A DNA stretch of 64,000 bases, taken from contig NZ_WQNI01000005.1 of assembly GCF_010993735.1 (NCBI RefSeq), forward strand, positions 312,501 to 376,500, written 5' to 3'. The notes under the pieces are model-generated. The model ran no database searches, was not told where the DNA came from, and worked only from the letters and a program-made list of their open reading frames with translations. The position numbers were made by a program, and so were the translations under genes. The stretch is from Chelativorans alearensis. Its GTDB lineage: Bacteria; Pseudomonadota; Alphaproteobacteria; Rhizobiales; Rhizobiaceae. Positions 33,166 through 50,050 of the stretch are shown piece after piece (positions within the stretch are counted from its first letter, which is position 1; the number at the start of each line of letters is the position of its first letter).

Positions 33166-33460
33166 GATAGTTCCCTAATAAATATCTTATATTTAAATCG
33201 GTTATGAGGTAAACGATGCGCCGCAAAAGTCCCGGTGGCCAACATACCCACGGCGTCTCCGGGCGCGTGGACAGCACCCACCCGCCTCGCGGCCGCGCTG
33301 CATATGCACGGCACATGCTACTGCCGAACCGCAGGAAGCACCAGAAGGGCTAAAAGTGTGCCCGCTAGGCCACGACAAACCCTTCTTGTCAAGCATAATG
33401 TTTACATAACTTCGCTCGTATACGTATACATTGCCATACAAACGAATCCTGGAGGATCCC
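33166..33460. other. Intergenic region between secretion operon and surface-protein gene
   Basis: This is 295 bp with no gene. It should carry the surface-protein promoter on the minus strand. A perfect 12-bp palindrome GTATACGTATAC lies at 33418-33429. Sequence near 33166-33200 is AT-rich. I see no strong terminator. Confidence 0.5.
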
Positions 33461-34669: not shown

Positions 34670-34670
34670 T

Positions 34671-36866
34671 CTACGCTTCCTCGGCTGGTGCGACGGCGGC
34701 TCGCGGCCGGTTGGAGGAAAGGGCGGCCAGCACGCCTTCCACCGGGCCGTCCGCCACCGGCCGTCCGTTCTTGACGACGATCGCTCGCCGCACGAGGGAA
34801 AGAACCGGCTGACGGTGCGTGGCCACGACCAGTGTGCGCCCGGAGAGCCACACGCGCATATTGTTGATGACACGCATTTCGAGCGCCTGGTCCATGGCCG
34901 CCGTCGGCTCGTCCAGGAGCACGATCCGCGGGTCGCGCAGCCATATACGGGCAAGCCCGATCGACTGGCGCTGTCCGCCCGAAACGCCTGCTCCTCCTTC
35001 GCCGATCTGCCGATCGAGGCCGAGCGGATGGTCCCGCACCAGGCCCTCCGCACCGACGAAGGCCAGCGCCTCCAGAAGCTCCTCGTCCCCGCGCGCCGTC
35101 AGCCCCAGATTTAGATTGTCGCGCAAGGTGCCGTAAAACAGCCGCACGTCCTGCGGCAGATAGGCAATGGCCCGACGAACGTCGGCCGGATCGATCTGGC
35201 GGATGTCCGTACCGTCGAGCACAAGCTGCCCCTGTGCGGGCTGGTAGAGCCCAGCCAAGAGCTTGAGCAGCGTCGATTTGCCGGAACCGTTGGCGCCGAG
35301 CAGCGCCGTTGCCGTGCCCGGCTCGAAGGCGAGGGCTGGAATCCGCAGAGCCGGCTCACTGTCCTGATCGTAGCGGAACGCCATCTCCTCAAGTCGATAG
35401 GCACCGGCAAGACGGGGGCGGTGAACGAATTTCCGCTCCGCCGGCCGGTCGATCGGCGCCTGCATGATCGCCTCCATCCCCTTGAGCGCCGCGCGCATGT
35501 GCTGCCAGCGCGAGAAAATCCCGGCAAGCTGCGTCAGCGGTGCGGTCGTGCGCGAGGAAAGGATCGCACAGGCCAACAGCCCGCCCGACGTCATGTGGCC
35601 GGCAGCGATCTGATAAACGCCGACGACCATGACCAAGACATAGGAGGACTGCTGCACCGCCGTGGCCGAATAGGTGAGCGTGCTGGACAACGCCCGCATA
35701 CGCGCGCCGTTGCCGGCGAGGAGCGCGGTGTACTCCTCCCAAAGCCGCTGGAAATGCCCCTCACCCTGCAGCGTCTTGACCGTTTCGGCACCCGACATCG
35801 CCTCGATCAGAAGGCCGTTGCGGATCGAACCTTCCTTCAAGTGCATGCGCGACATGCGCGAGAGCGGCCACTGCGCCAAGATGCCGGGCAGGACGATGCA
35901 GGGTACGGCGGCAGCCAGAACCCAGGCCACCGGCCCACCGATCATGGCGATGATGCCGATGAAGAGAAGGACGAAGGGAAAGTCGCTAAGCGCGCCGATC
36001 GTCGTCGAGGTGAAGAACTCGCGAACCGCGTCGAACTCGCGAACCTGGTTGGTGAAGGAGCCGGTCGACTTCGGCCGCGCCTCCAGCCGCATGCCGAGTG
36101 CCCTTTCGAAAACCCGCGATGACAGGGCGAGATCGAGCCTGCGGCCGACGATATCCACCAGATGGCTGCGCACGATCCGCATCACGGCTTCGATGAAGAT
36201 GGCAAGCCCGACGCCAACGGCAAGAACCCACAGGGTGGCGAAGGCCAGATTGGGCACTACCCGATCGTAGACCTGCATCGAAAAGAGTGAGGTGGTCACC
36301 GCAAGCAAGTTGGCGACGGCGGCTGCGAGGGCGACTTCCAGCACGTTCCACTTGTAGCGCGCGAACTCTCCCCAGAACCAGTGCCGCCGCGGCTCCCCGG
36401 CAAAACCCTCCGCGCGACCGTCGGCGCGCACCAGCGGTGCGGCAAGGATCACGAGACCGGAATGCTCCTCCTCGAGGTCCTTACGCGATACGACATGCTC
36501 GCGGCTTTCCATATCCGGCAGGAGGATCGTACAACGCCCGTCCTCGATTTTCGACAGCACGCATACGGTCCCGTCCCGCTGGACCAGGAGAACGGGCAGC
36601 AGTTCCGCGGCGATTGAGCCGAGCCTTTTCTCGTGCTTTACCCGGACGTCGAGATCCGCCCGGGCACCGGCCCGCCGCAGGAGAGTCAGCGTCATACGCC
36701 CTTCCGCAAGCGGAAGGCCCGCGGTCAATTCGCCGGCCGTGGACGGGCGATCATAGAGCCGGCAAAGCAGCAGAAGGCCCTCGAGCAGAGCGTCCTGCGG
36801 ATCGCGGCCAGAGGCCGCGAAACGCTCAGGCCTCGCCGTCCAATCATGGCTCTCACCGGCGGTCAT
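34671..36866 (-). CDS. Type I secretion ABC exporter with peptidase-like N-terminal domain (LapB/HlyB type)
   Basis: A 731-residue fused ABC transporter. Residues 15-140 are a C39-peptidase-like domain. I see no catalytic Cys-His pair in the usual context, so it is probably the non-cleaving kind (CLD) that binds unfolded substrate. The membrane domain (about 155-440) has six helices. The nucleotide-binding domain has Walker A LLGANGSGKST, signature VSGGQRQS, Walker B IVLLDEPTAAMD and switch THRQ. It overlaps the TolC-like gene by 4 bp, giving the order outer-membrane protein, exporter, adaptor. Substrate: very likely the surface protein downstream. Confidence 0.92.
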   Translation of the reverse strand: MTAGESHDWTARPERFAASGRDPQDALLEGLLLLCRLYDRPSTAGELTAGLPLAEGRMTLTLLRRAGARADLDVRVKHEKRLGSIAAELLPVLLVQRDGTVCVLSKIEDGRCTILLPDMESREHVVSRKDLEEEHSGLVILAAPLVRADGRAEGFAGEPRRHWFWGEFARYKWNVLEVALAAAVANLLAVTTSLFSMQVYDRVVPNLAFATLWVLAVGVGLAIFIEAVMRIVRSHLVDIVGRRLDLALSSRVFERALGMRLEARPKSTGSFTNQVREFDAVREFFTSTTIGALSDFPFVLLFIGIIAMIGGPVAWVLAAAVPCIVLPGILAQWPLSRMSRMHLKEGSIRNGLLIEAMSGAETVKTLQGEGHFQRLWEEYTALLAGNGARMRALSSTLTYSATAVQQSSYVLVMVVGVYQIAAGHMTSGGLLACAILSSRTTAPLTQLAGIFSRWQHMRAALKGMEAIMQAPIDRPAERKFVHRPRLAGAYRLEEMAFRYDQDSEPALRIPALAFEPGTATALLGANGSGKSTLLKLLAGLYQPAQGQLVLDGTDIRQIDPADVRRAIAYLPQDVRLFYGTLRDNLNLGLTARGDEELLEALAFVGAEGLVRDHPLGLDRQIGEGGAGVSGGQRQSIGLARIWLRDPRIVLLDEPTAAMDQALEMRVINNMRVWLSGRTLVVATHRQPVLSLVRRAIVVKNGRPVADGPVEGVLAALSSNRPRAAVAPAEEA

Positions 36867-38224
36867 GGGGCTTCTCCCGGGGGAGCCAGTTGCAGCGAAC
36901 CGAGCAATGTGCCGACGGCTCCCGCCGCCGCATACTGCAGATCGAGAATGTCGTAGCGCGCGTTTACGCGGCTGCTCTCGATGCGGAAGATGTCCGCCTG
37001 CATATTGACGAGATCGGCAACTTTCCGCTCGCCGATCTTGAACTGATCCTCGTAGAGCGCGCGCAACGCGCGGGCTCTCTTAAGCTCTGCGCCGAGAATT
37101 CCCAGCCGCCTGCGCAGTGTCGGCTCCTGGTCCAAAAGCTGGCGGACCTGAAGGCTGGCACCGCGCCGCGCCGTCTCGGCAGCCCATTTCGCGCTATCGG
37201 CCTGTAGACGCGCCGCCTCGACTTTGTTGAAATTGCTCAGACCGGCCATGGTCGGCCCGGTTATACGCAGGCCAACCCCAGTGTCTGCTCCGCCAGAATT
37301 CTGGTCGCCGCGCACGAAAGCTTCCGCGCTCACCTTGGGCAGAAGGCCCGCCTGCTCCGACTTCACCGCCTGACGAGCCGCGGCCTCGCGGGCGCGCGCT
37401 GCCTTTACCGCCGGCGCCTCGGAAACGGCTACATCCACGCCGGTATCCAGCGTCAACGGAAGCTCCGGCACCTCCGACAGACCATCGGCCTCGGCACCAA
37501 TGCGCAGAAGGTAAACACTGTGCGCCTTGCGCAGGGCGCCGCGGACATCCTCAAGGGCCGATTCCGCCTCTCCCTGCCGCACGCCGACGAGTTCGAGATC
37601 TGTCGCATCGCCGACGCCGCCACTGGCACGCTGCTTGGCAAGCGCCGCAAAGTGGCGGTAAACGGCGAGGTTTCTTTCGGCCGCCGCGATCAATTCCTCG
37701 CTGCGCTTTACCGCGATATGGGCGGCCGCCGCCTCCAGAGCTGCCGTTTCGCGGGCTTCCGTATATTCCGCCAGCGCCCCCGCCTGACCTGCTTCGGCCC
37801 GATCGACCTGTGCGCCGGTGCGCCCCCAATCGTAAAGCGGCTGGGCGAGCGAGACACGGTAGTCATAGGAATCTCGTGTTCCCACGGCGGCGCTGCTTTG
37901 CAACGACGGCTGATAGCCGGAATAGGCGATCTTGACGTCGACAGCGGCGGCGGAAAGGTCGGCCTGTGCACGCCGTACGGTGGAGCTATGGCTAAGTGCG
38001 GAGATGACCGATGCCCGCAAGCTTCCCGCCTCTGCCGTCGCGGCACCACCGCGGTTTACCGCGGACCGTTGCATGGGCGTGGCAGTGGCATCGTGCGGCT
38101 CTGTCTGAGCGATGGCCGAAGTGCTTGCCCGTCCGCTGGAGGGGCCGGGCTTCTGAGCTGCGGGCATGCCGCCGGCGCATGCCTGCAGCACCAAACCTGC
38201 CGTGAGGGTGAACACTATGGGCAT
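36863..38224 (-). CDS. TolC-family outer-membrane channel of the type I secretion system
   Basis: A 453-residue outer-membrane efflux protein. It begins with a likely lipoprotein signal (MPIVFTLTAGLVLQAC). Two long repeated helical halves follow, each with the TolC-like pattern (LYDWGRTGAQVDRAEA in the first and LDQEPTLRRRLGIL in the second). An ALYEDQFKIGERKVADLVNMQ segment is typical for these channels. The ATG at 38224 is chosen because AGAGAG lies about 7 bp upstream and it puts the lipobox at the right distance; the frame continues to 38383. It is the first gene of the secretion operon, so the promoter should lie to the right. Confidence 0.85.
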   Translation of the reverse strand: MPIVFTLTAGLVLQACAGGMPAAQKPGPSSGRASTSAIAQTEPHDATATPMQRSAVNRGGAATAEAGSLRASVISALSHSSTVRRAQADLSAAAVDVKIAYSGYQPSLQSSAAVGTRDSYDYRVSLAQPLYDWGRTGAQVDRAEAGQAGALAEYTEARETAALEAAAAHIAVKRSEELIAAAERNLAVYRHFAALAKQRASGGVGDATDLELVGVRQGEAESALEDVRGALRKAHSVYLLRIGAEADGLSEVPELPLTLDTGVDVAVSEAPAVKAARAREAAARQAVKSEQAGLLPKVSAEAFVRGDQNSGGADTGVGLRITGPTMAGLSNFNKVEAARLQADSAKWAAETARRGASLQVRQLLDQEPTLRRRLGILGAELKRARALRALYEDQFKIGERKVADLVNMQADIFRIESSRVNARYDILDLQYAAAGAVGTLLGSLQLAPPGEAP

Positions 38225-38799
38225 CGGACGCTCTCTTGAGCCGGAGTGGCTTCGTAGAGGGATCAAATTCTGCTCCTGCTTGATGACGATATGCATGACC
38301 AACGAGGAGAGGACGATGTCGCGGATGAGCCGACGCAAACCCGGCACCGCAACCCCACGAAGGGGATGCACTGCCGCTGTCATGAAGGGCGCCAGCAGCC
38401 AGATCGTCTGAACCCGCTCGACGCGGAAAACCGAACTCTGTTGCTGTGACTGCTCGTTTACGGGAGAACCGGACCATACCTGCGAGGCGGTTTTTGTTTA
38501 TCTATGCGCCAATCCAGATACCTGTTCTTCATGGGGCTAATACGTTAAAATATCTATAATTTTCCATAATAGTTATGAGTTATACAGGGATTATATATTC
38601 GTTTGCCATAAACGAAATATCTGCACTTGTCGAGTGCCTACGCGGTCAATTTATGCCGGATGCTTCTCTCTTTGGGCGCAAGCAGACGCACCGCCGCTCT
38701 TCCAGCGGGTTCGAAACGGCCTGCCGGCACGTAGGGAAGCGATGGTGGGATATCCAACAACCTACATGGCAGGGAGGCGAAGAGCGGTAGCGCTGTTTC
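38225..38799. other. Sparse region upstream of the secretion operon
   Basis: A 575-bp stretch with no gene I can support. The part around 38500-38600 is AT-rich and probably carries the promoter of the leftward secretion operon. Two rightward ORFs (71 and 113 codons) are present but have no recognisable domain and lack good ribosome binding sites. One arm of an inverted 34-bp repeat lies at 38716-38749. Confidence 0.55.
38716..38749 (+). repeat. Inverted 34-bp repeat, left arm
   Basis: This arm matches the reverse complement of 39071-39104 at 28 of 34 positions, with a shared core CACGTAGG-AAGCGATGG. In the right arm that core covers the start of the Cys-rich protein gene. The two arms flank that gene and lie about 320 bp apart. 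Confidence 0.6.
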
Positions 38800-39078
38800 T
38801 CACCCGGCTCCTCGACTGGGCCGAACATCAACGAGGCTGTCTGCCAAGCCGGTGCCCGCATCCGTGTCGATGCCGGACCAGCTCATCGGGTCGGCTTGCC
38901 GAACAAGGCGGAGCTGGCAGTGCGGGCAGAGCTGGCATTTTCGGGAGAACCGGGTCTCTCCGGGCCCTGACGTGATGACGATGGCGACGATCCGGTGTTC
39001 GTCGATCTTACGAAGCGTTCGCTCGTCGCCGCATCCGTCGCAGCGCCAAACCTTTTTCGCCTTGCTATCCTCCGCCAT
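38800..39078 (-). CDS. Small Cys-rich, zinc-ribbon-like protein
   Basis: A 92-residue protein of unknown function. It has CDGC at residues 13-16 and a CQLCPHC cluster near residues 48-54, spaced like a treble-clef or zinc-ribbon site. The C-terminal third is Gly/Asp-rich and may be disordered. The ATG at 39078 has GGAAAG close upstream. It has no operon partner: bhcD ends 196 bp away on the same strand and that gap shows no gene. Its real status as a gene is moderately supported by the paired cysteine motifs. Confidence 0.5.
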   Translation of the reverse strand: MAEDSKAKKVWRCDGCGDERTLRKIDEHRIVAIVITSGPGETRFSRKCQLCPHCQLRLVRQADPMSWSGIDTDAGTGLADSLVDVRPSRGAG

Positions 39079-39104
39079 CGCTTTCCTACGTGTCGGCCGG
39101 CCGC
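39071..39104 (-). repeat. Inverted 34-bp repeat, right arm
   Basis: Reverse-complement partner of 38716-38749 (28 of 34 identical). It covers the start codon and ribosome binding region of the Cys-rich protein gene. Confidence 0.6.
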
Positions 39105-39274
39105 TTCGGGCGTTTCGCCACCCGCGGGCTCAGGCACATAGGCTTGCAAAGCGTCTCCGGTTTCACAGACCCCGCCCATGCGTACACCCGGAAACAGTGC
39201 AGCCCCCAATTCCTGAATGTAAGGCAGAAACCTTGCGCGCGGCTTGCGCTTGGCAGAATGCGCATTGGGTTTGG

Positions 39275-40240
39275 TTAGAGGGGCAACTCGGTGGCAAGGC
39301 CTCTGCTGCGGGCGGCGGAGGCAGCGACGGAGGCAAGGGCCAGATCCTGCAGGCCGACGCCGGTGCCATCGAACAGGGTGATCTCGTCCGGCGACGAGCG
39401 CCCGGGGTGCATGCCGTTGACGACAGTGCCGATAGGCGTGATCTGCGCTTCCTCGATCAGGCCTGCCGCTACCGCGTGCTGACACTCGCCGATGCTGACC
39501 GCCTGGGCGACTTCATCGGTGAAGAGCTTTGCTGCGGCAACGAGTTCGGCGGCGACCTCCTGCTTGCCCCTGGTGTCGCTTCCCATGCAAGCCAGGTGCA
39601 CACCCGGCCGCACGTGATCCAGAGTCAGGAGCGGCGCGAAGCTCGAGGTGATGGTGATGATGATGTCGGCCTCCGCTCCGAGCCGCTCGAGCGTGACCGC
39701 CTCGAAGGGCAAGCCGAGCTCCGCCGCGGTTTCCTTCAGCCGTGAGAGCATTTCGGGATGCGGGTTCCAGCCGATCACCTTCTCGAACTCCCGCTGCGCC
39801 GCCGCTGCCCGCATCTGGAAGGCGGACTGGAAGCCGGCACCGACCATGCCGAGCACCCTGGCATCCGGGCGCGCCAGATAGCGGATGGAGACGGCAGAGG
39901 CCGCCGCGGTGCGCATGGCTGTCAGATAGTTGCCGCCGACCATTGCCTGCGGTCGCCCGGTATCGGGATCGAAGAGGAAGACGGTCGACTGATGGTTGGT
40001 CAGACCCCGCTTCTCGTTGCCTGGCCAATAGCCGCCCGACTTCAGCCCCAGCACGCCATGCGCACGGTCGAAGCCGGACTTGAAGCCGTAGAGCGCGTCC
40101 GCATGGCCGATCGCCTCACGGATGACCGGGAAGTTGGAGGCCTCGCCGCTGGCCATGGCGGCGAAAACGCCCTCCACGGCAGTAAAAGCGTCCTCGCGCG
40201 TGATGACGTTGCTGCAGGTTTCCTCCGTGACGACCAGCAT
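39275..40240 (-). CDS. bhcD: Iminosuccinate reductase (ornithine cyclodeaminase / mu-crystallin family)
   Basis: A 321-residue NAD(P)H enzyme of the ornithine cyclodeaminase fold. The Rossmann motif is VLGMVGAGFQSAFQMRA; the family's substrate-side segments are ALYGFKSGFDRAHGVLGLKSG in part and AMVGGNYLTAMRTAAAS. By itself this would be annotated as ornithine cyclodeaminase. Beside an aminotransferase, a threonine-dehydratase-like and a threonine-aldolase-like enzyme it fits BhcD, which reduces iminosuccinate to L-aspartate and so regenerates the amino donor of the beta-hydroxyaspartate cycle. It is the last gene of bhcABCD, 9 bp after bhcC. Confidence 0.88.
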   Translation of the reverse strand: MLVVTEETCSNVITREDAFTAVEGVFAAMASGEASNFPVIREAIGHADALYGFKSGFDRAHGVLGLKSGGYWPGNEKRGLTNHQSTVFLFDPDTGRPQAMVGGNYLTAMRTAAASAVSIRYLARPDARVLGMVGAGFQSAFQMRAAAAQREFEKVIGWNPHPEMLSRLKETAAELGLPFEAVTLERLGAEADIIITITSSFAPLLTLDHVRPGVHLACMGSDTRGKQEVAAELVAAAKLFTDEVAQAVSIGECQHAVAAGLIEEAQITPIGTVVNGMHPGRSSPDEITLFDGTGVGLQDLALASVAASAARSRGLATELPL

Positions 40241-40249
40241 GGCGGCGCC

Positions 40250-41404
40250 TCAGTAGGCCATGCCGCGCGCCGTGACCGGCCAAAGGCATTCCACCTTGCC
40301 GTCGCGGATGCCGACATACCAATCGTAGATATTGCATGTGGGGTCGCAATGGCCGGGCACGAGCTTCAGCTTGTCATTGAGCTTCAGCGCGTTGCCGGGA
40401 TCGGCGATGACGCCGTGTTCGTCGGAGCATTTGACGTATTCGACATCGTCGCGCCCGTAAATGACCGGCAGGCCGGAATCCACGCTCTGCGCCTTGAGGC
40501 CAGCGTCGCAGATCGCCTTGTCGGCCTTGGTCTTGGACATGATCGACGTCCAAATGAATAAGCTGTTCTCGAACGCATGAATGAAATCGCCGTCCTCGTC
40601 CCGCACCCTCTGGTAGTCGGCATCCATGAAAATGTAGGAGCCGCATTGCAGCTCGTTGTAGACGCCGGACGTGCCCTCGAAATAGTAGGAGCCCGTGCCG
40701 GCGCCGCCGACGATCCCGCATTCCAGGCCTTCCAACTTCAGCATGGCGACGGTGGCAGCGACTTGGGAGATGGCGGCTTCGATCTTCGCCTTGCGCTCCC
40801 CGTAGTCGTGAACATGCTGGGCCGCGCCCTGGTAGGCCTGCAGGCCGGAGAATTTCAGCCCAGGGGCGGCAGCGATCTTCTTTGCCAGGTCGACCACCGG
40901 CTTGCCCCACTGCACGCCGCAGCGCCCTGCCCCGCAGTCGATCTCGACAAGGCATTCGATCGTGGTGTCGTGCCTTTGTGCCGCCTTGGACAAATCCTCG
41001 ACATTGCCGAGATCGTCGACGCAAACGAGTGTGCGGGCTCGGCCTGCAAGCTGCGCCAGACGGTCGATCTTCCCGGGATCGACCACCTGGTTCGAGACGA
41101 GGACATCCCGCACACCGGCGGCGACGATCGCCTCGGCTTCCGACACCTTCTGGCAGCACACGCCGACCGCCCCGCCAAGTTCCATCTGAATGCGTGCGAT
41201 ATCGGCGGACTTATGCGTCTTGGCATGCGCCCGGTGGCGAACGCCCATCTCCTCGGCAAAGCGGCGCATGCGCTTCACATTGCGCTCGAAGGCGTCGAGG
41301 TCGATGATCAGCGCCGGCGTCTGCACCTCCTCCAGATTCATGCCGACGGCAGCCGGAATGTTCAGGCCGACGACGGGCACAGCAGTCTTGTTGAGGGCGT
41401 TCAT
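40250..41404 (-). CDS. bhcC: Beta-hydroxyaspartate aldolase (D-threonine-aldolase-like fold)
   Basis: A 384-residue PLP enzyme with an alanine-racemase-type barrel (PLP lysine at about 62, RAHAKTHKSADIA) and a C-terminal DSD1-like domain containing VKCSDEHGVI, which supplies divalent-metal ligands. In the beta-hydroxyaspartate cycle BhcC joins glycine and glyoxylate to (2R,3S)-beta-hydroxyaspartate. The assignment rests on the fold plus gene order; alone it could be a D-threonine or 3-hydroxy-amino-acid aldolase. It lies 31 bp after bhcB. Confidence 0.9.
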   Translation of the reverse strand: MNALNKTAVPVVGLNIPAAVGMNLEEVQTPALIIDLDAFERNVKRMRRFAEEMGVRHRAHAKTHKSADIARIQMELGGAVGVCCQKVSEAEAIVAAGVRDVLVSNQVVDPGKIDRLAQLAGRARTLVCVDDLGNVEDLSKAAQRHDTTIECLVEIDCGAGRCGVQWGKPVVDLAKKIAAAPGLKFSGLQAYQGAAQHVHDYGERKAKIEAAISQVAATVAMLKLEGLECGIVGGAGTGSYYFEGTSGVYNELQCGSYIFMDADYQRVRDEDGDFIHAFENSLFIWTSIMSKTKADKAICDAGLKAQSVDSGLPVIYGRDDVEYVKCSDEHGVIADPGNALKLNDKLKLVPGHCDPTCNIYDWYVGIRDGKVECLWPVTARGMAY

Positions 41405-41435
41405 GGCATTCCTCCTTGTTCTTCAGGCACGGCGC

Positions 41436-42389
41436 TCAGGCCGCCATCCAGGGCAGCTTGCCCAGGTCGACATTGCCGCCGGTGAGGACGACGCAGACCC
41501 GTTTGCCGGCAAAAATATGCTTGTTCTTAAGAATTGCCGCCAAGGGGACGGCGCTCGATGGCTCGACGACGATCTTCATGCGCTGCCAGATAAGCCGCAT
41601 CGCCTCGACGATCTCCTCTTCGGTGGCGAGGAGGATGTCTTCCACGTGGCGGAAGACGAAGTGCCAGGTAAGCTCCTTGAGCGGCACCTTCAGCCCGTCC
41701 GCCACCGTCTGCGGCGCATCGTCGGCAATGATGTGGCCTGCCTTGAGGGAGCGGTAGGCATCGTCGGCGTTTTTGGGCTCGGCCGCATAGATCTTCGCTT
41801 GCGGGGCGATGGCCGACAAGGTCAGGCAGCAACCCGAGATCATGCCGCCGCCGCCGATGGGGGCGATGACGGCATCGAGCGGACCCAGTTCCTCGACGAT
41901 TTCCTTCGCGCAGGTGCCCTGGCCGGCAATCACGCGGGGGTCGTTGTACGGGTGCACGAATTCAGCACCGGTCTCGGCCACCACCGCGGCGAGCGCGGCC
42001 TCGCGCGAGGATGTGCTGGGCTCGCATTCGACGATCCTGCCGCCATAGCCGCGCACCGCCGCCTTCTTGGGCTCCGGCGCTGTTTTCGGCATGACCACGG
42101 TTACCGGAATTCCGCGCTTGCCGGCAGCATAGCTGAGCGACAGCGCGTGGTTGCCCGATGAATGGGTGGCAACACCTGCCGCCGCCTTCTCCTCATCCAG
42201 GCCGAACACGGCGTTGGAGGCGCCGCGCACCTTGAACGCGCCGGCCTTCTGGAAGTTCTCGCACTTGAAGAACAGGGTGGCGCCGGTGAGACTGTCGAGG
42301 AACGTGCTGGTGAAGATCGGCGTGCGGTGGATATGTGGCGCGATGCGCGCATGCGCGGACACGACGTCGTCGTAGGTGGGGATTTCCAT
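41436..42389 (-). CDS. bhcB: Beta-hydroxyaspartate dehydratase (threonine dehydratase family)
   Basis: A 317-residue fold-type II PLP enzyme. PLP lysine 53 is in GAFKVRGASNA, the phosphate/substrate loop is THSSGNHALSLSYA, the Gly-rich phosphate cradle is PIGGGGMISG, and VLTGGNVD lies near the end. No ACT regulatory domain is present, as in serine racemase-like and hydroxyaspartate dehydratases. BhcB removes water from beta-hydroxyaspartate to give iminosuccinate. It starts 15 bp after bhcA. Confidence 0.9.
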   Translation of the reverse strand: MEIPTYDDVVSAHARIAPHIHRTPIFTSTFLDSLTGATLFFKCENFQKAGAFKVRGASNAVFGLDEEKAAAGVATHSSGNHALSLSYAAGKRGIPVTVVMPKTAPEPKKAAVRGYGGRIVECEPSTSSREAALAAVVAETGAEFVHPYNDPRVIAGQGTCAKEIVEELGPLDAVIAPIGGGGMISGCCLTLSAIAPQAKIYAAEPKNADDAYRSLKAGHIIADDAPQTVADGLKVPLKELTWHFVFRHVEDILLATEEEIVEAMRLIWQRMKIVVEPSSAVPLAAILKNKHIFAGKRVCVVLTGGNVDLGKLPWMAA

Positions 42390-42404
42390 CCGTTCCGGCT
42401 CCCT

Positions 42405-43607
42405 TCACGCTGCAGCGGGGACGGCCGAGGCGTCGTCCCCGCTGTGACCGGCGCGATAGAACTCCTGCGCGGCACCTACGCCGGAGCCAAATGTAATCGA
42501 AAGGCCCAGATCGACCATGACCATTTCGGCGGTGGCGATGCCGGCGAGCGCCATGACGTCCGTCATGCTGCCCAGATGGCCGATGCGGAACACCTTGCCG
42601 GCCACCTCGCCGAGGCCGACGCCGAAAGCGACCCCGTATTTCTCGGCGGCGTGCGTGACGATCCTGGTAGCGTCGAAGCCCGTGGGCACGGTGACGGCGC
42701 TCACCGTGTCGGAGTAAAGGGAGGGCTCTCTTGCGCAGAGCGAGAGGCCCCACGCCTCCACCGCCTTGCGAACGCCTTCGGCGATCCTGCGATGGCGGCT
42801 GAAGACATGGGGCAGCCCCTCCTCCTCCAGCATGGCGATCGACTGGCCGAGCCCGCGAATGAGATTGACCGGCGGGGTGTAGGGAAAGCCCCCGGCGGCC
42901 GCGCTTTCCAGCATGTCGCGGAAATCGAAGAAGCAGCGGGGGCATCGCGCCAAGGCCGTCGCCTCCATGGCCTTCGGGCTGACGCCGAGGATGGCCAGAC
43001 CGGCCGGCAGCATGAAGCCCTTCTGCGAACCGGTGATGGCGATGTCGACGCCCCATTCGTCCATGCGGAAATCCATGGAGGCGATGGAGCTGACGCCGTC
43101 GACGTAAAGGAGTGCGGGATGCTTCGCGGCATCGATGGCACGCCGTACGGCGGCGATGTCGCTTCGCACACCGGTGGCGGTTTCATTGTGGCAGACGAGC
43201 ACGGCTTTGATCCGGTGCTCCCTGTCGGTCTTCAGCGCGCGCTCGAATTCCGCTGCCGGAGCGCCGGCGCCCCACGGCGTCTCGATAACCTGAACATCGA
43301 GGCCGTGCCGCCGGCAGAGGTCGATCCAGCGGTGCGAGAACATGCCGTAGCGCGCTGCGAGAACCTTGTCGCCCGGAGAGAGCGTGTTGGTGACCGCCGC
43401 CTCCCAGGCGCCGGTGCCGGTGGCGGGAAAAAGGATGATTTCCGCACCCTCCGTCTTGAGGACGCGCCGCACACCCTCCAGCGCCGGCTTATACATCTGC
43501 GCGAAGGCGGGCGAGCGGTGGTCGATCGACGGATAGTCCACGGCACGCCGGAGCCTTTCGGGGATGTTCGTGGGGCCTGGAACGAAAATCGGGTTTTGTG
43601 TCGACAT
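42405..43607 (-). CDS. bhcA: Aspartate-glyoxylate aminotransferase
   Basis: A 400-residue class V PLP aminotransferase. It begins STQNPIFVPGPTNIPE; the PLP lysine is in ITGSQKGFMLPAG, and NETATGVRSDI and FRIGHLGSMTDVMALAGIA are further signatures. It resembles serine-glyoxylate aminotransferases and BhcA of Paracoccus denitrificans. BhcA transfers the amino group of L-aspartate to glyoxylate, giving oxaloacetate and glycine. The ATG at 43607 has GGAG about 9 bp upstream; the ATG at 43613 is only 3 bp from it. First gene of the operon, divergent from bhcR. Confidence 0.92.
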   Translation of the reverse strand: MSTQNPIFVPGPTNIPERLRRAVDYPSIDHRSPAFAQMYKPALEGVRRVLKTEGAEIILFPATGTGAWEAAVTNTLSPGDKVLAARYGMFSHRWIDLCRRHGLDVQVIETPWGAGAPAAEFERALKTDREHRIKAVLVCHNETATGVRSDIAAVRRAIDAAKHPALLYVDGVSSIASMDFRMDEWGVDIAITGSQKGFMLPAGLAILGVSPKAMEATALARCPRCFFDFRDMLESAAAGGFPYTPPVNLIRGLGQSIAMLEEEGLPHVFSRHRRIAEGVRKAVEAWGLSLCAREPSLYSDTVSAVTVPTGFDATRIVTHAAEKYGVAFGVGLGEVAGKVFRIGHLGSMTDVMALAGIATAEMVMVDLGLSITFGSGVGAAQEFYRAGHSGDDASAVPAAA

Positions 43608-43693
43608 CGGCATTGTCTCCGAGACCTGGTCGAGAGCAGCGGTGTTCCAACAGGCAGATTAAGACAGGTATTGGAGCGAAGGCAATTTTTTTG

Positions 43694-43730
43694 GAAAATA
43701 TTTTTATTTTCTCGACATTCCATATAGAAT
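43694..43730. promoter_or_regulatory. Candidate BhcR operators between bhcA and bhcR
   Basis: This 229-bp divergent intergenic region is strikingly AT-rich. It holds a perfect inverted repeat, GAAAATA (43694-43700) with TATTTTC (43705-43711), and, 5 bp on, the palindrome ATTCCATATAGAAT (43717-43730). IclR-family regulators such as BhcR bind sites of this general kind. Which site is used is not known from sequence. Confidence 0.5.
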
Positions 43731-43836
43731 ATTGATTTTATTACGTCTTTAAATTTTGCGCCCTGCGCAAATCATTTCTGAAACCTTGACGGCGGAGCGA
43801 GGGCGCATAAATCTTCGCGGCAACTGGGAGAAGATC

Positions 43837-44661
43837 ATGCCGCCCCATATCAGCCGCGCGCGGGGAAGGCCGCGCTCGTTCAACGACACGTCGAAAAGCA
43901 CGCTTATCCAATCGCTGGATCGCGCAATGGATGTGCTCAAGGTGGTGGCGAAGGGCCGCGGGATGTCGCTGACGGAGATCGCCGAGGCGTCCGGCCAGTC
44001 CGCGTCGACGGCTTACAGAATCCTGATTACGCTGGAGAAACACGGCATCGTCCAGTTCGATGAGCCGGCGCAGCTCTGGCAGGTGGGGTTGGAGGCATTC
44101 CGCATCGGCAGCAGCTTGCTCGGCCGCACGCAGGTCGTCGAGCAAAGCCGGCCGGTCATGCAGCGGATCATGACGGCAACGGGGGAGACCGCAAATCTGG
44201 CCATCGTCGATCAAGGCGAGGTGATCTTCGTCAGCCAGGTCGAAACGCATGAGCCGATCCGCGCCTTCTTCCGGCCCGGCACACGCGGCCCGATCCACGC
44301 TTCGGGCATCGGCAAGGCCTTGCTCGCCTTCTTTCCCGAGGCGCAGATCGAGGCGGTTCTCAAGAGACGGGCGCTCACCGCCTTCACCGACAAGACAATC
44401 ACCTCGAAAGAGGCGCTCCTTGCGGAACTCGAGCGCATCCGCACCCGCGGCTGGTCGATCGACGACGAAGAGCGCACACCCGGCATGCGCTGCATCGCCG
44501 CCCCCATCTTCAACCAATTTGGCGAGGCGACGGCCGGCATCTCGCTGTCCGGCCCGTCGGTGCGTGTCATGCCCGAGCGCGACGCCGAATACGGCACCCT
44601 CGTGCGCGAGGCGGCCGAGGAGATCACCCGAGCCATCGGCGGGAGCTGGCCGCAGCCCTAA
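43837..44661 (+). CDS. bhcR: IclR-family regulator of the beta-hydroxyaspartate cycle
   Basis: A 274-residue regulator. The N-terminal winged helix (about 20-80, MSLTEIAEASGQSASTAYR) is followed by the IclR effector domain with IHASGIGKALLAFFP, TRGWSIDDEERTPGMRCIAAPIF and a conserved SLSGPS segment. In Paracoccus BhcR senses glyoxylate and controls bhcABCD. The same divergent arrangement here supports the call. The ATG at 43837 has GGGAG about 7 bp upstream; the frame is open further upstream to 43756 into the operator region. Confidence 0.88.
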   Translation: MPPHISRARGRPRSFNDTSKSTLIQSLDRAMDVLKVVAKGRGMSLTEIAEASGQSASTAYRILITLEKHGIVQFDEPAQLWQVGLEAFRIGSSLLGRTQVVEQSRPVMQRIMTATGETANLAIVDQGEVIFVSQVETHEPIRAFFRPGTRGPIHASGIGKALLAFFPEAQIEAVLKRRALTAFTDKTITSKEALLAELERIRTRGWSIDDEERTPGMRCIAAPIFNQFGEATAGISLSGPSVRVMPERDAEYGTLVREAAEEITRAIGGSWPQP

Positions 44662-44692
44662 CATCCAGCCCCCGCTATTCGGACAGGCTTCG

Positions 44693-45985
44693 CTATTCGG
44701 ATACGAAGGCGAACCGCAGGACGAAAAGTGCCGCGACGCTCCAAGTCGCCGGATGCACGGCGCGCGGACGCCCTGCCAAGGTATTGATCACTGCGTAGCT
44801 GACGAAACCGAAGGCCAACCCGTTGGCGATCGAGTAGGTGAACGGCATCATCATTGCCGTCAGCACGGCCGGCACCGCCTCGGCCGTCTCCTCCCACTCG
44901 ATCTCGACCAGTTCACGCATCATCAGAGCGGCCACGTAAAGCAGCGCCGGCGCCGTTGCATAGGCGGGCACTGAGCCGGCGAGCGGCGAGAACATCAAGG
45001 CCGCAAGGAACAGAACGGCGATCACCAGCGCCGTGAGCCCCGTGCGGCCGCCTGCCTGAACACCAGAGGCGCTTTCGGCATAGGCCGTCGTGCTGCTCGT
45101 TCCCAGCAGCGAGCCGGCAACGATCGCCGTACTGTCCGCCATCAGCGCGCGGCCGAGACGATTGGGCCGGTCGGGCTTCATGAGCCCGGCGCGTTTGGCC
45201 ACGCCGATCAGCGTGCCCGTGGCGTCGAAAACCTCGACCAGGACGAAGACGAGGATGACATGCAGGAGCCCGGCGGAAAGCGCGCCCCAGACGTCGAGCT
45301 GCATGAAGGTGGGCAGGATGCTCGGCGGGGCTGAGATGACGCCCTGAAACTCGTTTATGCCCAACAGCATCGACAGGACAGTCACCGCCAGGATGCCGAT
45401 GAGGATGGCACCGCGCACGTGGAGGGCGTCCAGCCCGGCGATGATGAAGAAGCCGAGAATGGCAAGCATGGGGCCAGCCTGGGAGAGATCGCCGAGGGTA
45501 ACGAAAGTGGCCTCCGAGGCGACGACGATGCCGGAGCTCTTGAGCGCGATGATCGCCAGGAACAGCCCGATGCCGGCGACGATGGCGCAGCGCATGGATT
45601 GCGGAATGCCGGAGATGAGCCAGCGCCGGACGCCGGTCACCGTCAGGATCAGGAAGATGACGCCGGAAACGAAAACCGCCCCCAGCGCCTGCTGCCAGGA
45701 AAACCCCATCGTGCCGACAACGGTGAAGGCGAAGAAGGCATTGAGCCCCATGCCCGGCGCCATGCCGATCGGCCACTTCGCAAACAGCGCCATGATGACA
45801 GTGCCAAGCGCGGCGGCCAGACACGTCGCCACGAAGACGGCGCCGCGATCCATCCCCGTCGTGGAGAGGATCGCCGGATTGACGAAGATGATATAAGCCA
45901 TCGTCAGGAACGTGGTGACGCCGGCGATCACCTCGGTGCGCACCGACGTACCGTGGGCCCGCAGATCAAAGAGCTTTTCGAACAT
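44693..45985 (-). CDS. NCS2/AzgA-type purine permease
   Basis: A 430-residue inner-membrane transporter with about 13 hydrophobic segments. Its FLTMAYIIFVNPAILS, PIGMAPGMGLNAFFAFTVV and LGTSSTTAYAESASGVQAGGRTGLTA signatures are those of the AzgA-like (adenine/guanine/hypoxanthine) branch of nucleobase transporters. The ATG at 45985 has GGAGG 5 bp upstream. The gene is convergent with bhcR, 31 bp apart. Purine catabolism yields glyoxylate, so the neighbourhood suggests a functional link (inference). No purine-degrading enzyme is nearby. Confidence 0.88.
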   Translation of the reverse strand: MFEKLFDLRAHGTSVRTEVIAGVTTFLTMAYIIFVNPAILSTTGMDRGAVFVATCLAAALGTVIMALFAKWPIGMAPGMGLNAFFAFTVVGTMGFSWQQALGAVFVSGVIFLILTVTGVRRWLISGIPQSMRCAIVAGIGLFLAIIALKSSGIVVASEATFVTLGDLSQAGPMLAILGFFIIAGLDALHVRGAILIGILAVTVLSMLLGINEFQGVISAPPSILPTFMQLDVWGALSAGLLHVILVFVLVEVFDATGTLIGVAKRAGLMKPDRPNRLGRALMADSTAIVAGSLLGTSSTTAYAESASGVQAGGRTGLTALVIAVLFLAALMFSPLAGSVPAYATAPALLYVAALMMRELVEIEWEETAEAVPAVLTAMMMPFTYSIANGLAFGFVSYAVINTLAGRPRAVHPATWSVAALFVLRFAFVSE

Positions 45986-46322
45986 TTCTCCTCCCGCCTG
46001 CGCGCGGCGAACCGGCTGCAGCGTTTGCGTTGGTGAATAGGCCTGCCTGTCGCTTGCGAAGCGGAACACCGCTCCTCAGACGCCTCACCTTTCCGGCTTC
46101 GTATCCTCACTCCCGAAGCCGCATGAGCGACACCGCGGACGACCTCCGAGGCATCATCGCGCTGGACGGACCGCCCAGGGTTGCCAGCAGCGCGAAGCTA
46201 AAGCCGTTCGCGCAAACGGCAAGAGCGTGGAGGTGGAAGGAGTTTCAAAAAAAGATGGTGGGAGGCGGGGCGGAAGCCTTTGGGGCTGTATGAGATACCC
46301 CGCCCCGTCACCTTCCCGAAGG
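45986..46322. other. Intergenic region upstream of the purine permease
   Basis: 337 bp holding the promoter of the permease and the terminator of the sugar-transporter operon. A hairpin GCCGTT...AACGGC lies at 46203-46220. An 87-codon rightward ORF (46030-46293) is open but has no recognisable domain. Confidence 0.5.
46247..46306 (-). terminator. Probable terminator of the ribose-type transporter operon
   Basis: On the minus strand GGCGGGG (46304-46298) pairs with CCCCGCC (46270-46264) around an internal GGCTT/AAGCC-like hairpin. After a 10-nt gap comes a run of seven T (46253-46247). It lies just past the isomerase stop at 46323. Confidence 0.5.
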
Positions 46323-47177
46323 TCACCCGAGCGTCAGCCCCGCCTGCCGCGCCGCCTCGCGCAGGAATGGCAGTCCGACGTCGATGACATCCTGCGGGTT
46401 TTCCGCCACCGGCCGCCACACGGCGAGCCCGCCGGCGATGTCGGCATCGACGTGGTTCATGCTTTCGAGCGCGATCGGCCCCTCGTAGCCGATCGCGGCC
46501 ATGGCCTCGAAAGCGGCTGGCCAATTGACCATCCCGCGGCCGGGGACACCGCGATTGGCTTCAGAGACGTGAACATACCCGAGATAAGGGGCGGCGGCGC
46601 GGAAGCCCGTCTCGAAACTCTCCTCCTCGATATGCATGTGGTAGGTGTCGAGATGGATGAAAACGTTCTCCGCGCCCACGCGCTCGATGATCCGGGCCGC
46701 GTCGACGCCCCTGTTGATCAGGTGCGTCTCGTAGCGGTTGCACGGCTCGATGCCGAGCCGCAGGCCGTGGCCGGCGGCCTGCGCTGCCGCGCGTTCGAGG
46801 AAGCGGCAGATGCCGTCGATCTCGGCTTGCGTCGGCGCGCGGCCCGTGGTCTTGCCGATCGTGCCGTAGGTGACGCCGCAAAGCGCGCCACTGCCCACGG
46901 CCCGCGTTGCGCGGAAAGCGGCTTCCAGAAATGCCAGCGCCTCGTCGGGCCGCGCCACCACGTTGAGGCTTGCCGGCAGGCCGAGCGAGCAGATGAGCTC
47001 GACATCGTGCCGTGCCGCAAAGGCGGTCGCGGCGGCAACGTCGAGTTCCTCCGGTCGGAGCAACGGGATCTCGAACAGGCCGACGCCATGCGCCTTGAGC
47101 GCTTCCATCTGCGGTTCGATGCGCGCGACCTCCCACATGGGTGAGATCGCGAAGGTATGCAGTCCGAGCGTGTTCAT
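46323..47177 (-). CDS. Sugar phosphate isomerase/epimerase (xylose-isomerase-like TIM barrel)
   Basis: A 284-residue protein of the AP-endonuclease-2 / sugar isomerase superfamily. Likely metal ligands are the Glu of GIEPCNRYETHL, Asp/His in IHLDTYHMHIEEE, His in VHVSEANRGVPG and the final Glu in IALESMNHV, the arrangement of tagatose/allulose 3-epimerases and related enzymes. It is the last gene of the transporter operon (2 bp after the ATPase stop). It therefore probably isomerises the imported sugar or polyol. The substrate is unknown. Confidence 0.85.
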   Translation of the reverse strand: MNTLGLHTFAISPMWEVARIEPQMEALKAHGVGLFEIPLLRPEELDVAAATAFAARHDVELICSLGLPASLNVVARPDEALAFLEAAFRATRAVGSGALCGVTYGTIGKTTGRAPTQAEIDGICRFLERAAAQAAGHGLRLGIEPCNRYETHLINRGVDAARIIERVGAENVFIHLDTYHMHIEEESFETGFRAAAPYLGYVHVSEANRGVPGRGMVNWPAAFEAMAAIGYEGPIALESMNHVDADIAGGLAVWRPVAENPQDVIDVGLPFLREAARQAGLTLG

Positions 47178-47179
47178 CG

Positions 47180-47953
47180 TTATCCTCTTGCTTCGTGGGA
47201 GGCTGCCGCGGCCATATCTCCGCCGCCGACGATGCGGCTCACCACCTCGCTCATGTTGGTCTTGCCGGTGACGAGATCGGCTTCGGCCCGTCCATGGCGC
47301 AGGACGACGATCCGGTCCGTTACCGAAAGCACGTCGTTGAGGCGGTGCGATATCAGGATGACCGCGATACCTTCCGATTTCAGTCGGCGGATCAGGTCGA
47401 GCACGCTCTGCACTTCGCGAACGGCCAGCGCGGCCGTCGGCTCGTCCATGATGACGAGCTTCGGGTTGAAGGTGAGCGCCCGGGCGATGGCGACTGTTTG
47501 CTGCTGGCCTCCCGAAAAGGAGCCGACAGCGCGGTTGATCGACGGCAGATGCGCGTTGAGCCGCTCGATCATCTGCGCCGCCTGGCGGTCCATCGCCGCC
47601 TTGTCGACGAAGGGGAAGAGACCGAAGAGCTTCCTTGTCGGCTCGCGGCCGAGGAAGATGTTGCTGGAGACGTCCTGCTGTCTGGCGAGCGACAGGTCCT
47701 GATAGATCATTTCGATACCCAGCCGCCGGCGCTCGCCGGGATCGAGATCGAGGATGCCCCGGCCGTCGAAGGCGATCGAGCCGGCGTCCGCCTGATAGAT
47801 GCCGGTGATCGTCTTCATCAAGGTGGACTTGCCGGCGCCGTTGTCGCCGACCAGCCCGACGACCTCACCGGCTTTCACGGCGAGATCGACCCCGTGCAGC
47901 ACGTCGATCGCGCCGAAGCTCTTGCGGATGCCCTCAAGCTTGAGAAGGGTCAT
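47180..47953 (-). CDS. Ribose-type sugar ABC transporter ATP-binding protein (single domain)
   Basis: A 257-residue ATPase of the CUT2 class, but with one nucleotide-binding domain rather than the usual two fused copies (about 500 residues). Walker A is GDNGAGKST, the signature is FSGGQQQTVAIARA, Walker B is LVIMDEPTAAL and the switch is ILISHRL. The short single-domain form is known in FrcA/XylG-like rhizobial systems. The ATG at 47953 overlaps the permease stop by 4 bp. Confidence 0.9.
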   Translation of the reverse strand: MTLLKLEGIRKSFGAIDVLHGVDLAVKAGEVVGLVGDNGAGKSTLMKTITGIYQADAGSIAFDGRGILDLDPGERRRLGIEMIYQDLSLARQQDVSSNIFLGREPTRKLFGLFPFVDKAAMDRQAAQMIERLNAHLPSINRAVGSFSGGQQQTVAIARALTFNPKLVIMDEPTAALAVREVQSVLDLIRRLKSEGIAVILISHRLNDVLSVTDRIVVLRHGRAEADLVTGKTNMSEVVSRIVGGGDMAAAASHEARG

Positions 47954-48942
47954 ACCCGGCTCTCCTTCCTCACCTGGTACTGGTCGATGAAGACGGCGAG
48001 GATAAGCACCGCGCCGATGGCCATCTGCTGGTAGTAGGACTGCACGGCCAGCAAGTTGAGGCCGTTCTGCAGCACGCCCATGATGAGGGCGCCGATCATC
48101 GTGCCGAGGATGGAGCCGCGCCCGCCGAACAGGTTCGTGCCGCCGATGACGGCCGCCGTGATCGCCGTCAGCTCGTAGTTGAGCCCGGCGGTCGGGTCGC
48201 CCGAATTGATGCGCGCGGAAAAGAGCAGGCCGGCAAGGCCGGCAAGCGCCCCGGACAGCGTGTAAAGGATGCGCCGCTGCCGCTCGACGCGGATGCCGGC
48301 GGCCCGCGCAGCCCCCTCGGAATCGCCCAGCGCCAGCGTGTGCCTGCCGAAGCGCGTATAGGCCAGCACGCAATGGGCGACGACCGCCGTGGCGACGAAG
48401 ATGATGACCGGCATCGGAATGCCGAAGGGCCGGCCCTGGCCGAGGTAGAGCATGAATTCCGGCAAGCCATAGATGACGCGGCCGCCCGAGATGACGAGCG
48501 CCAGCCCACGCGCCAGCCCCAACATGCCGAGCGTCACAATGAAGGCCGGGACGAAGGCGCGCGTGACGAGCTGGCCGTTGATATAGCCGGCAATGCCGCC
48601 CGCCAGGATGCAGGCGATGACGCCCAGCGCGGATGGTGCCCCGAGATTGACGGCGACGAAAGCGCCCACCACTCCCGAAAGCCCCATCACCGAGCCCAGC
48701 GACAGGTCGAGACCGCCCGAGCCGATGACGAAGGTCGCGGCGATGGCCAGGATGCCGATCGTCGAGGTGGCGAGCAGGATGTTGAGGAGGTTGCTGAAGG
48801 ACAGAAAATACGGAGACAGGACCGCCATAAGGGCGCTGAGCGCCACCAGCACCAGGAACGACTCGAGCCTGATGTGCAGACGTTCGACCGAGGCGCGCTG
48901 GGCCCGCGTCCACACCCCCGGTGTTGCAAGATCAGAAGACAT
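47950..48942 (-). CDS. Ribose-type sugar ABC transporter permease (RbsC family)
   Basis: A 330-residue permease with about ten helices. The segment FVIGSGGLDLSLGSVMGLSG and the AITAAVIGGTNLFGGRGSILGT stretch are hallmarks of RbsC/XylH-type subunits. It starts 57 bp after the binding-protein stop, with a strong hairpin in between, and overlaps the ATPase start by 4 bp. Confidence 0.93.
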   Translation of the reverse strand: MSSDLATPGVWTRAQRASVERLHIRLESFLVLVALSALMAVLSPYFLSFSNLLNILLATSTIGILAIAATFVIGSGGLDLSLGSVMGLSGVVGAFVAVNLGAPSALGVIACILAGGIAGYINGQLVTRAFVPAFIVTLGMLGLARGLALVISGGRVIYGLPEFMLYLGQGRPFGIPMPVIIFVATAVVAHCVLAYTRFGRHTLALGDSEGAARAAGIRVERQRRILYTLSGALAGLAGLLFSARINSGDPTAGLNYELTAITAAVIGGTNLFGGRGSILGTMIGALIMGVLQNGLNLLAVQSYYQQMAIGAVLILAVFIDQYQVRKESRV

Positions 48943-48962
48943 TGTGCCTCGACCGGAAAAGG

Positions 48963-48985
48963 GGCTGGCGCCTCTCGCGCCAGCC
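48963..48985 (-). other. Intercistronic hairpin after the sugar-binding-protein gene
   Basis: A perfect 9-bp stem, GGCTGGCGC paired with GCGCCAGCC, with a 5-nt loop. On the minus strand it is followed by CCTTTT, so it may attenuate as well as stabilise. It sits between the binding-protein stop and the permease start. Confidence 0.6.
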
Positions 48986-48999
48986 AGGTTTCGGGAGGA

Positions 49000-49977
49000 T
49001 TATTTGACGTATTCGAGCAGCGGCTCGTTGCCGTCCTCGAGCACCTCTTGCGTGAGCACGAGAGTCGGCACGGCAATGTCCGACGGCACCTCTTCGCCGG
49101 CCAGCGCCTTCTTGACGTTCTCGACCGCCTGCTTGCCGACGAGATAGGGGAGCTGAGCGACGGAGGCGTTGAGTCGCCCGTCCTTGATCGACTTCACCGC
49201 GTCCGAGTTGCCGTCGACGCCGATGATGACGATCTGATCGCCCTTGCCGGCCGCATAGGCCGCCTCCACCGCGCCCAGCGCCATACCGTCGTTGGCCGCG
49301 AAGATGGCGACAAGGTCTGGATTGCGGGTCAAGATGTCGTTGGTGATGGATGCCGCCTTGCCGCGGTCCCAGTCGCCCGGAAGAGAGGCTACGATCTCCA
49401 GCCCCGGCGCCAGCTCGGCGAGCTTGTCGGCGAAGCCTTCCGCACGCATCTGGCCGGTGATGTTGCCCGACAGGCCCTCGATGACCAGCACTGCCCCGGT
49501 GGCATCGGCGCCGAGCTGGGAGACGAGATACTCCGCCCCTTGCGCGCCGGCCGCCACATTGTCGGAGCCGATGCGGAACGTGATCTCGATCCCTTCCTTG
49601 TCGAGGATCGCCTGGTCGAGATTGCCGTCGAGGTCAACCACCTTGATGCCCTGTTCCTGCGCGGCCTTCAGGCACGGAAGCAGGTTGGTGGAGTTGATGG
49701 CGGCGGTGATCATCGCCACCGGCTGGCGCTCGAGCATCGTGTTGCACACGTTGAGCTGCGGCTCTGCGGCCTGGTCGCTCTCGACCGCCTGCACGAAATA
49801 GTCGACGCCTGCTTCCTTGGCGCCGTCCTCAACGCCCTGCCCCATCGCACCCCAGAAGGGGTTGGAAAGCGTCTTCATCAGCACACCGTACTGGCCATCC
49901 TGGGCATGGGCGCCCAGCACGGAGAGCGACAGCGCCGCCGCCGAAATCAGGTTCATTCTCAGCATCTTGCCTATCAT
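49000..49977 (-). CDS. Ribose-type sugar ABC transporter substrate-binding protein
   Basis: A 325-residue periplasmic protein of the RbsB-like (cluster B) group. A signal peptide (about residues 1-25, ending LGAHAQ) precedes a mature part starting DGQYGVLMKTLSNPFWG, the usual family opening. AIFAANDGMALGAVEAA and IVIIGVDGNSDAVKSIKDG are the conserved hinge and sugar-site segments. The ATG at 49977 is preceded by GGAGGAG; a GTG further upstream at 49989 is the alternative. The sugar is unknown. Confidence 0.9.
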   Translation of the reverse strand: MIGKMLRMNLISAAALSLSVLGAHAQDGQYGVLMKTLSNPFWGAMGQGVEDGAKEAGVDYFVQAVESDQAAEPQLNVCNTMLERQPVAMITAAINSTNLLPCLKAAQEQGIKVVDLDGNLDQAILDKEGIEITFRIGSDNVAAGAQGAEYLVSQLGADATGAVLVIEGLSGNITGQMRAEGFADKLAELAPGLEIVASLPGDWDRGKAASITNDILTRNPDLVAIFAANDGMALGAVEAAYAAGKGDQIVIIGVDGNSDAVKSIKDGRLNASVAQLPYLVGKQAVENVKKALAGEEVPSDIAVPTLVLTQEVLEDGNEPLLEYVK

Positions 49978-50050
49978 TGACTCCTCCACAGACTTGCGAC
50001 GCCGCCTTTCAGGCCGAGCGCGGCGTCATTTCGGGTTTTGACAATCGGGG

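Follow-up and report, generated by a model that had tools for sequence, protein, structure and literature searches.

A predicted beta-hydroxyaspartate cycle operon in Chelativorans alearensis and the apparent in-place exchange of its aldolase gene, bhcC, among relatives

The window analysed here is a stretch of 64,000 nucleotides of Chelativorans alearensis (contig NZ_WQNI01000005.1, positions 312,501 to 376,500), in which positions 39275-44661 carry four enzyme genes in the order bhcA-bhcB-bhcC-bhcD together with a divergent regulator gene, bhcR. The enzyme genes lie on the minus strand and were assigned to an L-aspartate--glyoxylate aminotransferase (bhcA; 42405-43613, 402 amino acids), a beta-hydroxyaspartate dehydratase (bhcB; 41436-42389, 317 amino acids), a 3-hydroxy-D-aspartate aldolase of what we call type II (bhcC; 40250-41404, 384 amino acids) and an iminosuccinate reductase (bhcD; 39275-40240, 321 amino acids). 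Open reading frame calls gave gaps of 15, 31 and 9 bases between them and reproduced exactly the coordinates in a preliminary description of this DNA. The IclR-type regulator on the plus strand was likewise upheld in presence and orientation, although its start was corrected. The longest frame spans 43756-44661; the NCBIfam family match begins just after 43837, so the ATG at that position is the probable start, giving a gene at 43837-44661 and a protein of 274 amino acids.

The preliminary description had read these genes as the complete set of the beta-hydroxyaspartate cycle, and profile searches agreed. Pfam returned generic families only, while the top NCBIfam score of all five proteins fell to Bhc equivalog models and not to generic ones. 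BhcA (NF045640, 723.3 bits, cut-off 650), BhcB (NF045641, 602.3 bits, cut-off 550), BhcD (NF045643, 585.0 bits, cut-off 500) and BhcR (NF045644, 408.1 bits, cut-off 350) exceeded the curated cut-offs; BhcC (NF045642, 680.0 bits) stayed below its cut-off of 690. The runner-up model for BhcB, threo-3-hydroxy-L-aspartate ammonia-lyase, reached 367.9 bits against a cut-off of 452. Among solved structures, BhcD was nearest to 6rqa, named iminosuccinate reductase (E 6e-137, versus 1e-44 for alanine dehydrogenase), and BhcC to 6qkb, named D-3-hydroxyaspartate aldolase (E 6e-156, versus 2e-114 for the best D-threonine aldolase); the structure-search matches of BhcA and BhcB included no Bhc-named entry. 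Because the equivalog scores and the nearest structures of BhcC and BhcD are those of Bhc enzymes, the proteins do not group away from that family, the outcome named beforehand as fatal to the cycle reading. The layout proposed to be Paracoccus-like is indeed the same in a Paracoccus denitrificans strain (locus L101), whose proteins are 72% (BhcA), 72% (BhcB), 60% (BhcC), 67% (BhcD) and 50% (BhcR) identical to those of the window. The remark that such genes are usually misannotated was true only in part, since some records are still generically named but NCBIfam holds equivalog models for all five.

On the sequences compared, BhcC is of two diverged types: type I, the Paracoccus type, and type II, that of the window. 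We know of no assayed member of type II. Its closest copies in named genomes were those of Chelativorans xinjiangense (96% identity) and C. salis (94%), among the best 80 of 317 candidates. The motif reads GHSDPT in the C. xinjiangense copies (L004, L126) and GHCDPT in the remaining type II sequences compared. The type II group also includes copies with no other bhc genes in the stretch examined. At eight loci (L018, L021, L023-L026, L029, L031), BhcC is 72-76% identical to that of the window and the full bhc set is absent from the stretch examined, some of these contigs being short; upstream of the L018 copy lies a homocysteine S-methyltransferase-like gene that scores under its cut-off.

The distribution of the two types within the genus pointed to an exchange of this one gene. 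Trees were built from 25 loci plus the window, omitting the duplicates L004 and L005 and the incomplete loci. In the BhcA, BhcB and BhcD trees, the window and genomes G007 and G015 group with G004, G014 and G009 (supports 87, 95 and 83, only the 95 being starred), while in the BhcC tree G004, G014 and G009 fall in the P. denitrificans clade (type I) and the window, G007 and G015 in another (type II). Forcing the six BhcC proteins of the genus into one clade cost 205.7 log-likelihood units (approximately unbiased test, p-AU 8e-56); the six genomes were named after the discordance had been seen, so this p value was not obtained blind, although the margin is wide. Pairwise identities told the same story: the window and G014 share 85% in BhcA, 86% in BhcB and 82% in BhcD but 68% in BhcC, and across G004, G014 and G009 the values were 82-85% for BhcA, 86% for BhcB, 81-82% for BhcD, 75-82% for BhcR and 67-68% for BhcC. 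Conversely, the BhcC of G014 shares 84-87% identity with its counterparts in five type I operons (L128, L103, L104, L105, L101), whose BhcA, BhcB and BhcD are 65-80% identical. In sliding DNA identity, the closest partner switches towards the end of bhcB and a second time close to the end of bhcC, whose final ~250 bases are similar in both partners. The simplest reading of these comparisons is the replacement of one gene, bhcC, inside an operon. Because the type I BhcC of G004, G014 and G009 is nested within the type I clade, next to Paracoccus and four copies from rhizobia, these three genomes are suggested, rather than proven, to be the recipients. In sum, it appears that bhcC was swapped in situ among relatives.

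A wider sample of 387 alphaproteobacterial genomes was drawn evenly, with that of the window (G000) included. A BhcA match at E 1e-150 was found in 48 of them, and was above the cut-off in 18. Besides the window this yielded 52 places, of which 14 carry bhcA, bhcB, bhcC and bhcD and one (L141) carries bhcA, bhcB and bhcC; the remaining 37 have no bhcB and bhcC of comparable similarity, some of these stretches ending at contig ends. BhcC was of type I in all 14 complete loci, that of L144 lying nearly midway (identity 70% with the window and 71% with P. denitrificans). The BhcC of L141, probably from the same genome as L020, is nearer to the window's type (75%, versus 64% to P. denitrificans). 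Altogether 40 complete loci were compared, 16 with type II and 24 with type I, the type II rows being enriched because the window's own BhcC was the query that found most of them; the type II copies of those 16 all lie between bhcB and bhcD. Across these 40 rows, the BhcC tree needs a single change of type, compared with five changes on the BhcA tree, four on the BhcB tree and five on the BhcD tree; these are quick trees without bootstrap and with several weak branches. A single clade of type-II-bearing operons was rejected on BhcA, BhcB and BhcD (p 7e-5, 0.007 and 2e-4).

In a further tree, type I formed a clade (support 100) and type II was not one clade in the free search; a tree constrained to hold type II together nevertheless scored better than the free search (p 0.761). 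We also considered separate recruitment of the two types from stand-alone aldolases, and do not regard a separate origin as established, because one joint clade of types I and II was not rejected (p 0.499). Literature searches found no title or abstract opening on BhcC types or bhcC replacement, which is weak evidence of absence. It is possible, if rather doubtful, that BhcC is an exchangeable module whose two deeply diverged types replaced each other in place several times while the bhc operons otherwise stayed congruent, that type II is catalytically unlike the only assayed type (in rate, metal, stereochemistry or range of substrates) and that the exchange is adaptive.

The regulator carries the residues expected of a glyoxylate sensor, with G160, I161, D212, S239 and S241 (IclR numbering) in the pocket and the pyruvate patch lost. 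All five oxygen-binding positions (G/I/D/S/S) and two of the four hydrophobic-patch positions (P/A/G/M) agree with P. denitrificans BhcR, whose patch reads T/A/S/M. A control row for P. denitrificans made by the same script (T/A/S/M and G/I/D/S/S) matched Table 1 of PMC11323563. The gap between bhcR and bhcA holds an IclR-like inverted repeat, and the predicted BhcR operator, TGGAAAATATTTTTA, lies at 43692-43706 (no strand assigned), 79-93 bases before bhcA, with one mismatch to the pattern TGRAAANNNTTTYCA. We take this predicted operator to resemble the E. coli IclR site.

The pattern itself was drawn up after viewing palindromes in 28 bhcR-bhcA gaps and was guided by the E. coli IclR site. 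A site with no more than one mismatch occurred in 22 of these same 28 gaps (shuffles: mean 0.49, maximum 3), a count that is partly circular because the pattern was written on them. Allowing two mismatches, 27 of 28 gaps had a site (shuffles: mean 3.95, maximum 10), the one without being L048. We then held out 14 further loci unused for the pattern, taking the 260 bases before bhcA in the two that lack a bhcR match. Here, six of 14 carried a site with no more than one mismatch (shuffles: mean 0.25, maximum 2), two of the six being loci of one genome; nine had one with at most two mismatches (shuffles: mean 2.2, maximum 6) and five had none. Seven of 1013 pieces taken from the same set of loci, with the gap left in place, contained a site with at most one mismatch. 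Most of the operator-like sites are ~55-85 bases upstream of where the bhcA match begins. Five of the 28 gaps hold two separate sites, each with at most one mismatch (shuffles: mean 0.01, maximum 1), and the window has one. The double sites fit the two-site hypothesis put forward in PMC11323563, and the operator prediction makes that model directly testable.

The individual reactions of the beta-hydroxyaspartate cycle are established, and its enzymes were reportedly described by Schada von Borzyskowski et al. in 2019. For the window we infer the reactions, the regulation and the role in growth from the work on P. denitrificans. BhcA would transfer the amino group of aspartate to glyoxylate, giving oxaloacetate and glycine; BhcC would join the glycine to a second glyoxylate to form beta-hydroxyaspartate, from which BhcB would remove water to give iminosuccinate, and BhcD would reduce the latter with NAD(P)H to aspartate. 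The predicted net result is one oxaloacetate from two glyoxylate with no loss of CO2. BhcR would sense glyoxylate and control the operon from the IclR-like site between the divergent genes, and the glyoxylate would come from glycolate via GlcDEF and probably also from purines. In P. denitrificans, the cycle is required for growth on glycolate or glyoxylate according to PMC11323563.

The genome of the window (5,702,301 bases in 36 contigs, 99.87% complete) is consistent with this scheme. The claim that glyoxylate is not assimilated through the glycerate pathway agrees with the finding that all 16 genus genomes, this one included, lack a glyoxylate carboligase scoring above the cut-off; its best match (365 bits, cut-off 711) is an acetolactate synthase that passes the cut-off for that enzyme, and the other 12 matches reach at most 216 bits. 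GlcE and GlcF are above their cut-offs and GlcD is below on both its models (550.1 versus 567.9 and 730.6 versus 897 bits). A GntR regulator, with none of its models above cut-off, is divergent from the GlcDEF genes, an arrangement resembling the glcR-glcDEF neighbourhood described in PMC11323563. On the contig of the bhc genes, 52-61 kb away, we found genes for xanthine dehydrogenase subunits, XdhC, 5-hydroxyisourate hydrolase, an allantoinase fused to an OHCU (2-oxo-4-hydroxy-4-carboxy-5-ureidoimidazoline) decarboxylase, ureidoglycine aminohydrolase and ureidoglycolate lyase. Gene content suggests glycolate (via GlcDEF) and, probably, purines as sources of glyoxylate. PMC11323563 names purines, ethylenediaminetetraacetate (EDTA) and nitrilotriacetate (NTA) as sources, and according to a published abstract Chelativorans strain BNC1 imports EDTA and metabolises it. 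EDTA was considered for the present strain and set aside, the NTA monooxygenase family TIGR03860 having no match in its genome.

We consider it very probable that the cluster encodes the beta-hydroxyaspartate cycle, fed by glyoxylate from glycolate and purines, under BhcR, with bhcC as one of two exchangeable types. Several observations weigh against it: BhcC falls 10 bits short of its cut-off and shares ~60% identity with its P. denitrificans counterpart, malate synthase G gives glyoxylate an alternative possible exit in this genome, and nine of the 16 genus genomes have glycolate oxidase without the cycle. A chance grouping of four amino-acid genes with no relation to each other (class V aminotransferase, threonine dehydratase, D-threonine aldolase and ornithine cyclodeaminase), as the generic Pfam names alone would allow, is scarcely credible and already refuted by the equivalog scores, the order shared by many loci and the matching regulator. 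In the structure-search alignment, K62 of the window's BhcC falls on the pyridoxal 5'-phosphate (PLP) lysine of Alcaligenes D-threonine aldolase, and H352 and D354 fall on its two metal ligands (Lys59, His347 and Asp349 in PMC4401734). A narrower doubt concerns this aldolase, which might be D-threonine-aldolase-like rather than a hydroxyaspartate aldolase, leaving the cycle broken or altered at this step in type II operons. Three points speak for this idea: the score lies under the BhcC cut-off, the PLP lysine stands in HAK in the window and in the two D-threonine aldolases aligned, versus HGK in 6qkb, and several close relatives have no bhcA, bhcB or bhcD in the stretch examined. We nonetheless hold it very improbable: the metal-site motif GHCDPTCN is shared with 6qkb, where both D-threonine aldolases have SHVDPT; the match to 6qkb (522.7 bits) exceeds that to the best D-threonine aldolase (385.8), so that in the structure search D-threonine aldolases are not the closest solved relatives; type II copies occupy the place between bhcB and bhcD; and related operons have a Paracoccus-type BhcC in that very position.

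A different question is whether the same cycle has as its main duty the glyoxylate from purine breakdown and not that from glycolate. The purine genes on the same contig, the NCS2 permease that adjoins bhcR, the purine genes and NCS2 symporter flanking bhc in Methylobacterium oryzae and Sulfitobacter OXR-159, and the mention of purines in PMC11323563 all speak for it. However, GlcDEF is also present in this genome, and ureidoglycolate lyase occurs in 15 of the 16 genus genomes while BhcD is above its cut-off in seven; a strong GlcD match, never above cut-off, occurs in all 16, so neither glycolate nor purine genes alone predict the cycle. Moreover, the NCS2 permease lies beside bhcR in three of the seven bhc-bearing genus genomes and otherwise only at L033, was absent from the 52 further loci, and was not matched, at the E-value used, by the symporters annotated in L105 and L106. 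A conserved purine-bhc linkage was therefore not adopted as the leading explanation, not being general among the loci compared, and we retain a mainly purine-related duty as a rather unlikely rival to the cycle fed from both sources.

The NCS2-family permease (44693-46069, minus strand; PF00860, E 3e-56), possibly for purine uptake, is a lineage-specific neighbour outside the cycle. Together with a TIM-barrel epimerase-like protein and a sugar-type ATP-binding cassette (ABC) transporter it forms a set at 44693-49989 that is kept in G007 and G015 and not in G004, G014 and G009. On the other side, 29518-38383 encodes a large protein with immunoglobulin-like and FG-GAP repeats next to an ABC exporter and an efflux protein of the outer membrane, which together may serve type I secretion of an adhesin. 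Scans of 38300-46400 were uninformative for promoters (no sigma-70-like site, shuffle mean 1.2) and for terminators (nine sites, shuffle mean 6.2).

Other bhc loci differ in composition. A second locus in one genus genome (L127; G005, contig C14) has bhcB, bhcC and bhcD, with no bhcA or bhcR match in 17.8 kb. On a Methylobacterium oryzae plasmid (L105), bhc is flanked by 8-oxoguanine deaminase, a molybdopterin-binding protein and an NCS2 symporter, and on a plasmid of Sulfitobacter sp. OXR-159 (L106) by ureidoglycolate lyase, allantoinase and an NCS2 symporter. Gammaproteobacterial loci (L037:9006-13386, L035:437-5671, L030, L036, L038, L039, L040) pair bhcB-bhcC with a BhcR-like regulator and show no bhcA or bhcD match in the stretch examined, possibly encoding a shorter conversion of glycine plus glyoxylate into oxaloacetate. 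In L037, all three proteins fall short of their cut-offs (BhcB 523.4/550, BhcC 607.6/690, BhcR 345.4/350). The longest frames between bhcC and the regulator (L037:11204-12475, L035:3061-4536) have no Pfam match, the former also no NCBIfam match at 1e-30, and may not be genes.

The cycle saves carbon relative to the glycerate pathway and is being engineered into plants and Pseudomonas, as published titles and PMC12214560 indicate. A naturally exchanged second type of aldolase would be an alternative part for such engineering, and the bhcC exchange would show that a single step of a fixed four-gene operon is replaceable on its own. For the host organism itself, the finding amounts to ordinary good annotation.

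The pathway and its layout are already known, and this genome is one more holder. The window shares with bhcABCD-bhcR of P. denitrificans the gene order, the divergent regulator, the four enzymes and the oxygen-contacting residues of BhcR, and differs in the type of its BhcC and in having Pro and Gly in BhcR where P. denitrificans has Thr and Ser. Records of Ruegeria, Aminobacter and Methylobacterium annotated as Bhc (L102, L104, L105) have an equal layout, and a Sulfitobacter locus has bhcA-D with no bhcR match. E. coli IclR and AllR belong to the same regulator family and have glyoxylate-binding residues in common with the window's BhcR; unlike them, BhcR has no hydrophobic patch, and in P. 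denitrificans it activates bhc, as described in PMC11323563. Within the genus, G004, G014 and G009 differ from the window in their Paracoccus-type BhcC and in having no NCS2 permease beside bhcR. Against this background, what the present comparison adds is the putative in-place exchange of bhcC, the type II aldolase and the predicted operator.

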